Source: a virus
Reading direction: 5' to 3' (one strand)
Virus record (IMG/VR): IMGVR_UViG_3300024059_000009
Span: 1-44,300 of that record
DNA: 44,300 nucleotides
Below, in pieces: positions 29,740-41,175 of this stretch (position 1 is its first letter; every line of letters begins with the position of its first letter). The translations under genes and the position numbers were made by a program. The notes under the pieces are model-generated. The model was not told the DNA's origin and did not search any database. It saw only the letters and a list, made by a program, of their open reading frames with translations.

Positions 29740-29979
29740 TCAGCCATAGCCATAGCCATAGCCATTGCCAGTGCCAGTGCCAGAGCCATTGCCAGAGCCA
29801 TTGCCATTGCCATAGCCATAGCCATAGCCATTGCCAGTGCCAGTGCCAGAGCCATTGCCAGAGCCATTGCCATAGCCATAGCCATTGCCATAGCCATTGC
29901 CATAGCCATAGCCATTGCCATAGCCAGTGCCATTGCCAGAGCCATTGCCAGTGCCATTGCCAGAGTTTAAACTTGACAT
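29740..29979 (-). CDS. (Gly-X)n low-complexity protein, 79 aa, encoded by hexanucleotide repeats
   Basis: ATG 29979 has a fine ribosome site (GAGGTGATAGT) and overlaps the upstream gene by 13 bases, so this frame is the likely translated one. After MSSLN, the whole protein is 37 pairs of X-Gly, with X only Asn, Thr, Ser or Tyr, and the TGA comes directly after the last pair. Each pair is one hexanucleotide. A ten-pair block (S/N/T/Y order NSNSTTNYYY) occurs twice near the C-terminus. Such sequences resemble adhesive, silk-like or phase-separating Gly-rich proteins. The other frames give Met-Ala or His/Cys/Gln repeats without ribosome sites. A second repeat ORF of the same design lies at 40676-40912. 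Confidence 0.65.
   Translation of the reverse strand: MSSLNSGNGTGNGSGNGTGYGNGYGYGNGYGNGYGYGNGSGNGSGTGTGNGYGYGYGNGNGSGNGSGTGTGNGYGYGYG
29743..29964 (-). repeat. Hexanucleotide tandem repeat, 37 units
   Basis: Thirty-seven uninterrupted six-base units, on the leftward strand GGC preceded by AAT, ACT, TCT or TAT. GG therefore recurs every six bases for 222 bases on the coding strand, a spacing that could form two-layer G-quadruplexes in RNA or ssDNA. A ten-unit block is duplicated, a sign of slippage or unequal recombination. Confidence 0.95.
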
Positions 29980-30332
29980 ACTATCACCTCTGCAATAGTT
30001 TTTGCAGCTTTCTTAGATATAGGTATAAACTCAATTACCTCAGTAAGTGTAACTTCAGGAACTTCTCTTGTGAATTTGCACTTTTCAGGCTTTTTGGTGC
30101 CGTCAATCGCCAACTGTGATAAATCCATAGCTCCTTCCCAATATCTCATCCTGCGAGCATTGACAAGAGTCACATCTTTGCCATTTCTTCGCTGTATGTA
30201 ACCTGCAAAAACACCAGCAGAGTAAGTCCTTACCATACAGTAAACCAATCCATCATCTACTACTTGGGTAATCAGAGAGTCTTTTCGGACATACTCAACT
30301 TTATTAATCATCATTGTTTCGGGTTCAGTCAT
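29967..30332 (-). CDS. DUF6948-like small protein, partner of the Gly-X repeat ORF
   Basis: Read from ATG 30332 with AAGGATAG upstream (longer start at 30359 has no site), 121 residues. Core pattern: YCMVRTYSAGVFAGYI, a charged turn RRNGKDVTLVNARRMRYWEGAMDLSQLA, then CKFTREVPEVTLTEVIEFIPIS. This matches, from memory, the phage family DUF6948. Its V.L..A....Y..G and ..IE order recurs in the gene at 40909-41175, and both genes overlap an ORF of hexanucleotide repeats. Predicted small beta barrel; function unknown. It is the first leftward gene after an intergenic control region. Confidence 0.7.
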   Translation of the reverse strand: MTEPETMMINKVEYVRKDSLITQVVDDGLVYCMVRTYSAGVFAGYIQRRNGKDVTLVNARRMRYWEGAMDLSQLAIDGTKKPEKCKFTREVPEVTLTEVIEFIPISKKAAKTIAEVIVCQV

Positions 30333-30359
30333 AATACTATCCTTTTTAATTGTAAACAT

Positions 30360-30410: not shown

Positions 30411-30511
30411 ACGTTTTATTTATATTGTGAGTGTTTGGCAACTCAACTATAAGATAACACTTATTTTCACTATTGCAAGAACTTTCTTTATTATTTTCAA
30501 TAATTTATTAT

Positions 30512-30539
30512 TTGACAATAAGGATTAATGATGTATCTT
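30512..30539 (+). promoter_or_regulatory. Rightward promoter for the two-gene island
   Basis: TTGACA at 30512-30517, a 16-base spacer, and TATCTT at 30534-30539. A perfect -35 hexamer and a fair -10 lie 30 bases before the start of the rightward gene at 30569, which needs its own promoter because it is surrounded by leftward genes. AAAGG precedes the ATG. Confidence 0.6.
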
Positions 30540-31233: not shown

Positions 31234-31749
31234 ATGGATGAAGTAAACGCAATATTCTATGTAGCTAGGTGTGGTAAGCCACATTCTTGGCTAATTGGAT
31301 TGTTTACTAAAAGTAAGCAGCATACAACCCAATACTCACATGCAGAAATACAATTACCAGATACATCATGTATAGGCTCAGATGAAGCAGACGGTGGTGT
31401 TAGGATGAGAATAGGACTAGACACTAACAATGGGTGCTGGGCTAAGATAAAGGTTCCTGTGCCTAACTTGTCTGGCGGTTTAGAGTTCTATATTGAAACT
31501 AAGAACGATAAATACGACTGGGGACATATAGGTTCATGTGTAACTAAGCCATTTAGGAAGCTATTTAAGTATGGCAAGGCTAAATGGATCAAAGATAGCC
31601 CTAATGAATGGGTATGCGATGAATGGCAGTATGAGTTTTTACGTAGATGTGGGTGTGATTTACCTAAATTAACTGACGTTGGCAACCCTAACGAAAACTA
31701 TGATATTATTAAAGCGTATGTTCTGAAACTAAGGCAGGTTAACCCTTAA
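31234..31749 (+). CDS. Permuted papain-like (NlpC/P60-superfamily) protein, 171 aa
   Basis: The order His before Cys is that of the permuted NlpC/P60 (YiiX-like) group: H36 in QYSHAEIQL, then YDWGHIGSC (94-102), then the probable nucleophile C128 in NEWVCDEWQYEFLRRCG, a WxCxE context typical of this group. These proteins are cysteine hydrolases acting on amide or ester bonds in cell wall, lipid or protein substrates. No signal peptide is seen. It is the second gene of the rightward island and is followed by a strong terminator. Substrate cannot be named; an inactive or lipid-binding version is possible. Confidence 0.72.
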   Translation: MDEVNAIFYVARCGKPHSWLIGLFTKSKQHTTQYSHAEIQLPDTSCIGSDEADGGVRMRIGLDTNNGCWAKIKVPVPNLSGGLEFYIETKNDKYDWGHIGSCVTKPFRKLFKYGKAKWIKDSPNEWVCDEWQYEFLRRCGCDLPKLTDVGNPNENYDIIKAYVLKLRQVNP

Positions 31750-35902: not shown

Positions 35903-36193
35903 TTATTTAATGTTTTTACGTGGAGAATACAATCGCCACAATACGTTAGTTAAATCTTCAGCCACTTGTATAACCTTTTCCTCAGTCATACCCCAATCAG
36001 CACCATGCAGTAGCTCATGAACTACAAGATACATGCTCTTCTTAGTCTTTTTAAACCCACTAGGTAGAAGTATGTCACCTACTAACCCTTCCTTGCTAGG
36101 TGCAAAAGGATTCATGTTAATCCCTTCAAAACCTTCAAGGTCTAGTCGGTAAGGGTGGCCGTCAAGCTGTATTTTCATCCATTGCTTAGGCAT
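35903..36193 (-). CDS. HELLH small zincin-like protein, 96 aa
   Basis: Read from ATG 36193, which overlaps the stop of the phosphoesterase gene (TAATG) behind GGAAGG. The middle has MYLVVHELLHGADWGMTEEKVIQVAEDL, whose HELLH is the HExxH zinc and catalytic motif of metallopeptidases, followed by a helix that places a Glu or Asp where a third ligand is expected. Small one-domain proteins of this kind occur in phages and are annotated as zincin-like. Whether it cleaves a peptide is unknown. The N-terminal part has a short beta hairpin (KIQLDGHPYRLDLEG). Confidence 0.7.
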   Translation of the reverse strand: MPKQWMKIQLDGHPYRLDLEGFEGINMNPFAPSKEGLVGDILLPSGFKKTKKSMYLVVHELLHGADWGMTEEKVIQVAEDLTNVLWRLYSPRKNIK

Positions 36194-36900
36194 TATAATA
36201 CCTTCCCACACCATCGGCCATTTGTCTTAAGAACCATTGGACATAGTAATGGTTGCGCGTTACCTATATTAATATAGTGAGAGTCAGCCCATTCCCAGCC
36301 TTTGCCAACACCTAAGTTATCATTATATGATTTAAGGCTTTCAATAGGTATGCCCAATGTTTTAGCCTTACGCTTACTTAAGCTGTCGTGATTACCTTCG
36401 GATATTTTCATCTTTGGCATGTGTGACTCTAATTCTTGACAAAAGTCCCTAGCTCTCTTTAGCTCTTCTTTAGCTGATAGTGAGCCATACTCTACCTCAT
36501 GATAAGATGGGATATGATTCTCTTGAATATCGCCAACATGGAGAACGTGATCTAATTCTAACTCTTCTCTAACAGCTAAAAGAAATGGGATTGTATCTTT
36601 ATGGTGATATGGAGCGTGCGTATCTGATATTACCAACGCTCTATACTTAGACCCAATAACAGCACCGCAACCCGATATAGGGCGTTTCTTCTTGTGTTGC
36701 TTGTTATATTCAAATACTACTGCCTTTGGGTCGCCTAACCAGCCAGTTATCATCGACCAGCGCAGGTTATAATGGTCTGCATGGTGAGCAGTTTCAAACG
36801 AGCTATGAATATGACCACTAACAGTACAATGGCTAAATGACGCAGCATTGTTTTTCGCGCTGGCCCCTAAATTATGCGTTAAATATAAGTTTTGATTCAT
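36193..36900 (-). CDS. Calcineurin-like metallophosphoesterase, circularly permuted motif order
   Basis: GGAGG lies upstream of ATG 36900, and ATGA overlaps the previous stop. In the normal family order the motifs are DxH, GD, GNHD, then H and GHxH. Here the order is TH9, GHIH 29-32, DTH 93-95, GD 123-124 and GNHD 169-172: the usual C-terminal part comes first. The segment ending about residue 86 (KKKRPISGCGAVIGSKY) would be the normal C-terminus, followed directly by the normal N-terminus (RALVISDTHAPYHH). All metal ligands seem present, so it may be active on phosphodiesters. Partner genes are small and unknown. Substrate not deducible. Confidence 0.78.
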   Translation of the reverse strand: MNQNLYLTHNLGASAKNNAASFSHCTVSGHIHSSFETAHHADHYNLRWSMITGWLGDPKAVVFEYNKQHKKKRPISGCGAVIGSKYRALVISDTHAPYHHKDTIPFLLAVREELELDHVLHVGDIQENHIPSYHEVEYGSLSAKEELKRARDFCQELESHMPKMKISEGNHDSLSKRKAKTLGIPIESLKSYNDNLGVGKGWEWADSHYINIGNAQPLLCPMVLKTNGRWCGKVL

Positions 36901-40675: not shown

Positions 40676-40912
40676 TTATCTTGACCATGACCTTGACCTT
40701 GACCATGACCATGACCCTGACCTTGACCTTGACCCTGACCTTGACCCTGACCTTGACCATGACCTTGACCCTGACCTTGACCATGACCCTGACCTTGACC
40801 CTGACCCTGACCTTGACCCTGACCCTGACCCTGACCTTGACCCTGACCATGACCTTGACCCTGACCCTGGCCATGACCTTGACCATGTGACGGCGCTAGC
40901 TTGAATTATCAT
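40676..40912 (-). CDS. (Ser-X)n low-complexity protein, 78 aa, encoded by hexanucleotide repeats
   Basis: ATG 40912 overlaps the upstream stop (ATGA) behind GGAGTG, so this frame is probably translated. After MIIQASAVT, the product is alternating Ser with Arg, Trp or Gly, ending right after the repeats at TAA. The RS-like pattern with Trp and Gly would be basic and RNA-binding in type; that is analogy only. Other frames give Val-Lys/Arg and Asp-X repeats without sites. Same arrangement as the Gly-X ORF at 29740-29979. One odd unit yields Trp-Pro near the N-terminus. Confidence 0.6.
   Translation of the reverse strand: MIIQASAVTWSRSWPGSGSRSWSGSRSGSGSGSRSGSGSRSGSWSRSGSRSWSRSGSRSGSRSRSGSWSWSRSRSWSR
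40681..40884 (-). repeat. Hexanucleotide tandem repeat, 34 units
   Basis: Thirty-four six-base units, NGGTCA on the leftward strand, where N is T, A or G and never C. One unit carries a second change (CTGGCC on the given strand at 40867-40872). GG or GGG recurs every six bases on the coding strand, G-quadruplex-capable and telomere-like in look. Sequence unrelated to the 29.74 kb array, but design and unit length are the same. Confidence 0.95.
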
Positions 40913-41175
40913 TTCATCACTCCGTAAGACTCAATTGACGCCATAGTCACACGCCACTCTTTATGGGGTAGCTGCTCTGCGTTTTCCCAATCCTTATCCT
41001 TAAAGTCCCCTGTCTCATATACTATGCTCGGGGCTTCAAGTAACACAAAGGTGTCATTTACGCCTGTAAGTTTTCCTGTGTATATATATCTACAGCAAAA
41101 TAGCGTAATTACCTCACCAAGTAGTGATTCCATGCCTTGTCCTTCTACTTCTTGAACTTCTACTAACTTCTTCAT
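40909..41175 (-). CDS. Small protein, partner of the Ser-X repeat ORF, 88 aa
   Basis: AAAGGTTAAATT before ATG. Core: LLGEVITLFCCRYIYTGKLTGVNDTFVLLEAPSIVYETGDF, then AEQLPHKEWRVTMASIESYG. This resembles a small phage family I have seen without function. Its order of beta strands and the VxLxxAxxxxYxxG and IE motifs matches the DUF6948-like protein at 29967-30332, so I infer distant paralogy. Both directly precede and overlap a hexanucleotide-repeat ORF. Sm/SH3-like barrel possible. Confidence 0.65.
   Translation of the reverse strand: MKKLVEVQEVEGQGMESLLGEVITLFCCRYIYTGKLTGVNDTFVLLEAPSIVYETGDFKDKDWENAEQLPHKEWRVTMASIESYGVMK

Follow-up and report, generated by a model that had tools for sequence, protein, structure and literature searches.

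Phage modules pairing a predicted Sm-like core protein with a hypervariable two-residue repeat protein

Among the closest described counterparts of the locus reported here are Sm and LSm proteins with low-complexity tails. RG-rich or other low-complexity tails occur on SmB, SmD1, SmD3, and LSm4, and bacterial Hfq has a disordered C-terminus. The likeness lies in the predicted Sm-like strand order of the phage cores, in their best solved-structure matches, and in the low-complexity repeat that is tied to the core; the phage modules differ in that the tail comes from a gene of its own, which overlaps the core gene, and has other residue alphabets, and in that the cores show no Sm match at the level of sequence. 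FET-type (FUS) domains rich in Gly, Ser, and Tyr, and SR-type domains, resemble the phage tails in composition and in sticker-and-spacer character. The phage tails, however, alternate strictly between two residues, consist of repeat over the whole protein, are encoded by hypervariable hexanucleotide DNA, and are of phage origin.

Gly-rich low-complexity stretches have been reported in phage proteomes, and aromatic residues and Arg have been described as under-represented in prokaryotic and phage low-complexity regions (PMC6821194); in the tails considered here, by contrast, Tyr, Trp, and Arg are selected. Neither a partner gene nor a rule of alternation nor a fold is described in the passages of that paper on such regions. 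One of the two cores belongs to a Pfam family, DUF6948 (PF22253), whose entry records only a domain of unknown function and which no paper in the open-access set searched mentions; the predicted fold, the coupled repeat partner, and the relatives termed F2 to F4 below are additions to that entry. Searches of the open-access literature for the core/repeat pairing, for such arrays, for glycine-rich or dipeptide phage proteins, for phage-encoded Sm proteins of this type, for phage condensates, and for the Rheinheimera and Pectobacterium phages returned nothing on point. We found no open-access paper describing this widespread phage module; because the search covered open-access papers, priority is not certain.

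Two modules in one viral genome

The window (the whole stretch of viral DNA that was analyzed, 44,300 nucleotides) carries two modules, each with a small core gene overlapped by a repeat ORF. The features are as follows.

29740..29979, minus strand: Gly-X ORF of 79 aa, an MSSLNS leader followed by (Gly-[Tyr/Asn/Ser/Thr])37
29743..29964, minus strand: Gly-X hexanucleotide array, 37 perfect NNTGGC units in which NN is TA, AA, AC, or TC
29967..29979, minus strand: 13-base overlap between the end of the DUF6948 gene and the beginning of the Gly-X ORF; the same offset in 66 of 115 homologues
29967..30332, minus strand: DUF6948 gene, core of module 1, ATG at 30332 and stop at 29967; predicted Sm-like fold
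30490..30518, minus strand: promoter-like site upstream of module 1, a consensus match only
40676..40912, minus strand: Ser-X ORF of 78 aa, leader MIIQASAVTW followed by Ser-[Gly/Arg/Trp] units; net charge +14
40680..40887, minus strand: Ser-X hexanucleotide array, about 34 TCA-NGG units
40909..40912, minus strand: ATGA stop/start overlap of the F2 core and the Ser-X ORF; ATGA or GTGA in 35 of 57 F2 and 36 of 54 F4 homologues
40909..41175, minus strand: core of module 2, family F2, 88 aa; predicted Sm-like fold

The layout that the original prediction had assigned to module 1 is present in full: the 13-base overlap, a ribosome site (AGAGG) a few bases 5' of the Gly-X ATG, the 37 perfect units, and a TGA stop directly after unit 37. 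The gene it had called DUF6948-like is DUF6948 by Pfam (E 5e-28; 97.5 bits, above the curated cut-off of 27 bits), and the Gly-X product is net neutral. The layout given for module 2, a four-base ATGA overlap and some 34 six-base Ser-X units, was likewise recovered; its core has no family match in Pfam, PHROG, or NCBIfam, nor does the DUF6948 profile match it. The arrays of the two modules are the strongest tandem arrays of the window, with Tandem Repeats Finder scores of 244 and 284-293 against at most 79 for all others.

Module 1 stands at the head of a leftward operon with YqaJ-type exonuclease, exonuclease/RusA-like, SSB, and HNH/NinG genes. No near relative of the window's 8-32 kb stretch was found among 50,697 phage records. 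Elsewhere in the window, positions 31234-31749 match a PHROG called enoyl-CoA hydratase-like in the host takeover category (E 4e-13), and positions 36193-36900 match a metallo-phosphoesterase (E 3e-36).

Core/repeat pairing and array turnover across phages

Related loci were gathered from contig collections and phage records with the partner sequence as the sole query, the repeat playing no part in the choice. Including the window, this yielded at least 133 distinct DUF6948 loci (family F1) and at least 69 distinct loci of the module-2 core (family F2); the scans retained the best 80 loci, and neither set was sampled at random. Pairing was scored where a dipeptide-periodic stretch of at least 8 units lay within 600 bases, counting loci with at least 150 bases downstream. 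On this measure, a repeat array follows the core at 115 of 119 F1 loci and 59 of 61 F2 loci, as against 15 of 1165 other ORF ends at the same loci (among the matches listed), and two of the four F1 misses (L013, L075) hold a short or decayed Gly-X stretch. The pairing is near-obligate: the repeat ORF accompanies its partner in 97% of related-phage loci, as expected of the two-gene unit originally proposed, and partners lacking one, which would have told against that unit had they predominated, are the exception.

The reverse comparison, in which arrays were found by DNA patterns and the upstream gene was then identified, placed an F1 gene upstream of 67 of 98 Gly-X arrays and an F2-type gene upstream of 59 of 98 Ser-X arrays, counting arrays for which upstream sequence was available. 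Many of the remaining arrays sit after two other small proteins, F3 in the case of Gly-X and F4 in the case of Ser-X; an F4 core is followed by a Ser-X array at 54 of 61 evaluable loci. An F3 core with Gly-X is present in the RcapNL prophage of Rhodobacter capsulatus SB1003.

A hexanucleotide repeat shows periodicity in every frame, and the coupled start was used to tell the frame. In all 115 F1 arrays it is the Gly frame, and in 57 of 59 F2 arrays the Ser frame, that is entered from the start codon coupled to the stop of the partner gene. Because the coupled starts of homologues open these same frames, the frames given above for the window ORFs are real; by the same F2 count, a Gly-Gln/His or Val-X reading of module 2, in which other frames are also open, was rejected. 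Among complete cases, the stop of the ORF lies no more than 6 residues from where the array ends in 100 of 111 (F1) and 54 of 57 (F2). The repeat is preceded by a short leader (in F1 'MESL..' or 'MSKLNKP..', in F2 'MIRGKKQKY..', in F4 'MNxAILRTGFD'), and the overlap between core and tail is conserved. A programmed frameshift fusing core and tail was considered as a general rule and set aside: start offsets vary by lineage (−17, −16, −13, −4, +1), and at no locus do core and tail share one frame. The whole is almost certainly a conserved, translated two-protein module.

Comparison of close relatives shows how rapidly the arrays change. The partner genes of Pectobacterium phages Ymer and Abuela are identical to those of Amona, as are the 330 bases after the array, whereas the array ORFs have 37 and 34 hexamers, respectively, and differ by 13 mismatches and 18 gap columns. 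Across the Pectobacterium phage set, the array ORFs range from 27 to 45 hexamers; the leader is kept, and the last residues mostly so. Between isolates of Rheinheimera phage, the arrays vary by a single unit and at individual X residues. The repeat changes fast and in frame, in both sequence and length, and slippage clearly alters array length.

Several loci show further variation. Some contain two successive repeat ORFs (L008:2255-2632, L012:2219-2580, L011:2264-2801); in L008, the first is followed, in another frame, by a peptide, LNPLGF, resembling one at the end of the partner gene, which suggests that the stop/start junction was duplicated along with the array. Contigs in IMG/VR commonly end inside the array (e.g., L071, L077, L079, L082, L083, L100, L119), indicating that short-read assemblies break there and that repeat lengths and linkage are under-reported. 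In MW202613 (L562:1131-1445), the Gly-X ORF is annotated as 'lamprin', a name probably carried over by low-complexity similarity.

Predicted fold and family relations

AlphaFold models were built from alignments of 91 (F1) and 67 (F2) sequences, the F1 model being that of the translation of 29970-30338, and reached pLDDT values of 94.5 and 91.7. Foldseek comparison with the PDB returned, for F1, only Sm/LSm structures among the top 50 matches (e.g., 1i4k, TM by target 0.68, rmsd 2.1) and, for F2, nearly only Sm/LSm structures (9dtr_r, TM by target 0.82; archaeal Sm 1i8f, TM by target 0.80, rmsd 1.8). The E-values of the Sm/LSm matches to the window partners run from 2e-3 to 6e-2. Both models form, by prediction only, the bent five-strand antiparallel barrel of the Sm fold, which points to a Sm-like fold for both window cores, with Sm/LSm ahead of any other solved fold. 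The proposal that the two partners might be compared by structure prediction thus bore fruit: the same fold is predicted for both, rather than two unrelated ones.

At the level of sequence profiles, there was no Pfam LSm match, in a search for LSm/Hfq likeness, and the F1 and F2 profiles find no Sm chain in the PDB; the label used here is therefore 'Sm-like fold, predicted' and not 'Sm family'. The Sm1/Sm2 signature residues (Gly-x-Leu ... Asp/Asn-x-x-x-Asn; Arg-Gly in loop 5) were looked for by eye: the F2 alignment conserves Gly-x-Leu and an Asn in loop 3; the usual second Sm1 Asn and the Sm2 (loop 5) Arg-Gly were not seen by eye in the F1 or F2 alignments. Among viral models, those retrieved with the F2 model include DUF6948 proteins and, from a Rheinheimera phage, a 104-aa protein that is as long as the F3 partner in that phage.

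Profile comparison joins F1 with F3 (E 5.5e-7) and F2 with F4 (E 3.6e-9), so that F3 is homologous to F1 and F4 to F2. The cores accordingly fall into two superfamilies, and a different repeat type goes with each. Between them the comparison is weaker, at P 0.14 (not significant) for F1 against F2 and P 0.006 for F1 against F4. The original description of the window as holding two paralogous two-gene units accordingly stands for the two-gene unit; paralogy of the two modules is unproven, their link being the predicted fold and, weakly, F4.

Selection on the repeat and possible roles of the modules

The DNA units of the arrays differ in their consensus codons. In F1 arrays, the Gly codons are GGC 89, GGT 19, GGA 5, and GGG 2, and in F2 arrays, the Ser codons are TCG 22, TCT 17, TCA 8, AGC 7, AGT 2, and TCC 1, a tally in which at least two F1 arrays (L206, L207) are read in the wrong frame; the residue fractions below use the coupled frame. 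Since the consensus codons differ between arrays, one protein type is spelled by unrelated DNA units. The 16 F1 arrays with the most decay depart from the array consensus at 38% of Gly third bases but at only 4-5% of Gly first and second bases. The repeat is under selection at the protein level, as all six Ser codons serve and Gly is kept despite third-base drift. X is Ser (35%), Tyr (28%), or Asp (23%) in F1, together 85%, and Gly (37%), Trp (28%), or Arg (27%) in F2, together 91%; Ala (GCY), which free combination of the same bases would be expected to produce, is nearly missing. The tails have the biased composition of FUS/SR-type domains, with aromatic and charged stickers on Gly/Ser spacers: the median charge is −8 for the acidic, Tyr-bearing Gly-X tails and +11 for the basic, Trp-bearing Ser-X tails, with about 13-14% aromatics in each. 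Median core charges are −3 (F2) and −4 (F4), opposite to the basic tails, and +1 (F1), weakly opposite to its tail.

These data bear on two readings in which the encoded peptide would matter little. The repeat could act as RNA or DNA, its G-rich (GGN4)n sequence being bound by the barrel or forming quadruplexes while translation is incidental; the original prediction had allowed such a role for the repeat RNA. GG does recur at six-base spacing along the coding strand of both arrays, and in Ser-X arrays nearly every X codon is NGG; as Gly, Trp, and Arg here are exactly the NGG codons, some nucleotide constraint may act on the Ser-X arrays. However, Ser codons alternate between TCN and AGY from array to array, Gly persists as its third base drifts, and in F2 arrays X1 varies in 55% of units as compared with 4% for the synonymous Ser third base. 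The coupled frame, moreover, is the Gly or Ser frame, and Gly-X runs in two frames occur in only 3 of 115 F1 loci. A role as nucleic acid is accordingly disfavored and seems rather improbable. It is very improbable that the arrays amount to no more than meaningless microsatellites that gene ends can tolerate: slippage plainly changes their length, but the two partner superfamilies nearly always carry their own array type, and the codon test, with its signal of codon-level purifying selection, contradicts this reading.

The reading we prefer, with a probability of roughly 0.4 and resting in part on structural models, is that a Sm-like core and a co-translated, multivalent low-complexity tail form an early nucleoprotein assembly or condensate. 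The first gene would encode the small barrel protein, whose fold is predicted, and the second, from its overlapping start, a short conserved leader with a two-letter repeat tail, in an acidic, Tyr-rich version, (Gly-[Ser/Tyr/Asp])n, or a basic, Trp-rich version, (Ser-[Gly/Arg/Trp])n. The leader may dock on the core, which would oligomerize and/or bind nucleic acid, while the sticker-and-spacer tail would supply multivalent contacts, so that core and tail might together build the assembly early in infection, in the manner of eukaryotic Sm/LSm cores and their RG-rich or other low-complexity tails. The tail would here be a separate hypervariable polypeptide for which composition and alternation count, and exact sequence does not. 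The acidic F2 and F4 cores with their basic tails fit direct core-tail contact, and the presence of RecT, Erf, Sak4, exonuclease, HNH, and SSB genes nearby speaks for an assembly. Against it stand the confinement of the Sm likeness to the predicted fold, the weakly opposite charge of F1 cores and tails, and the strict alternation, which is also compatible with a beta-strand or fiber structure. A more specific version is doubtful: that in acidic Gly-X and basic Ser-X modules alike, a separate tail made hypervariable by hexanucleotide slippage drives an early infection condensate, as a counterpart of the eukaryotic Sm core with its low-complexity tail.

Two further roles for the peptide seem unlikely. 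The tail could be an effector, either a host inhibitor or an anti-defense decoy, with the barrel as its chaperone or neutralizer. In its favor, Ser-Arg/Trp tails look like cationic peptides rich in Trp and Arg, F2 and F4 cores bear a charge opposite to that of their tails, the operon position is early, and the tails are hypervariable between otherwise identical phages, as an arms race would predict. It is the core, however, and not the tail that is conserved; the acidic Gly-X tails are unlike cationic peptides; tail composition is conserved where sequence is not; and PADLOC profiles for phage-defense and counter-defense systems gave no match. An equally unlikely role is that of silk-like or polyglycine-type fiber proteins, covering a surface or becoming part of the virion. 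With strict alternation, each face of a beta-strand would show a single type of residue, and in some gut phages Gly-X is fused to a globular domain of 155-170 aa, but the genes around the modules serve recombination, replication, and regulation and are not mainly structural, the exception being the Pectobacterium phages, where a tail fiber gene adjoins the module on the opposite strand. The fused C-terminal domain follows Gly-X downstream of DUF6948 in L014, L193, L199, L201, L203, L204, and L205, which are gut/rumen-type loci (Bacillota, Bacteroidota); it carries '...GxxVYxIDxxPTII...FAHGETL...WHHxLTGSC...AYGGDIIRKL' and matches no Pfam or NCBIfam family.

Whatever the role, a domain of unknown function found in phages and prophages of many bacterial phyla now has a predicted fold, together with a constant partner and a rule of selection. 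Phages evidently keep fast-slipping hexanucleotide repeats for two-letter proteins by protein-level selection, and low-complexity sequence rules may consequently be read from natural variation among close phages. If the assembly model is true, it would provide a system of Sm core and low-complexity tail outside eukaryotes that is open to simple phage genetics.

Host contigs come from Bacillota, Bacteroidota, Pseudomonadota, Acidobacteriota, Chlamydiota, Planctomycetota, Cyanobacteria, and others, labels that are provisional because many of these contigs are metagenome bins. Outside the window, F1 neighbors include exonuclease VIII, RecT, Erf, Sak4, HNH, and repressor genes, and F2 neighbors include integrases, regulators, methylases, and nucleotide-metabolism genes. 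Few F1 records also hold F2 or F4, and F1 is rarer still in F2/F4 records; the window is among the few with both types. Since F1-type and F2-type modules rarely occur in one genome, they are alternatives that run in parallel, not complementary halves of a single device, and the idea that acidic and basic modules act as partners in one phage is not supported, given this rarity. In one phage (G013), an F4 Ser-X module lies about 1 kb upstream of an F1 Gly-X module (L041:921-1238 and 2001-2366). DUF6948-like genes also occur in Neisseria: the chromosome-sized PLSDB records NZ_CP119142 and NZ_CP119140 (Neisseria gonorrhoeae) match in three places each, the best match lacking an annotated gene, and Gly-X ORFs lie beside such genes in L222 and L219.
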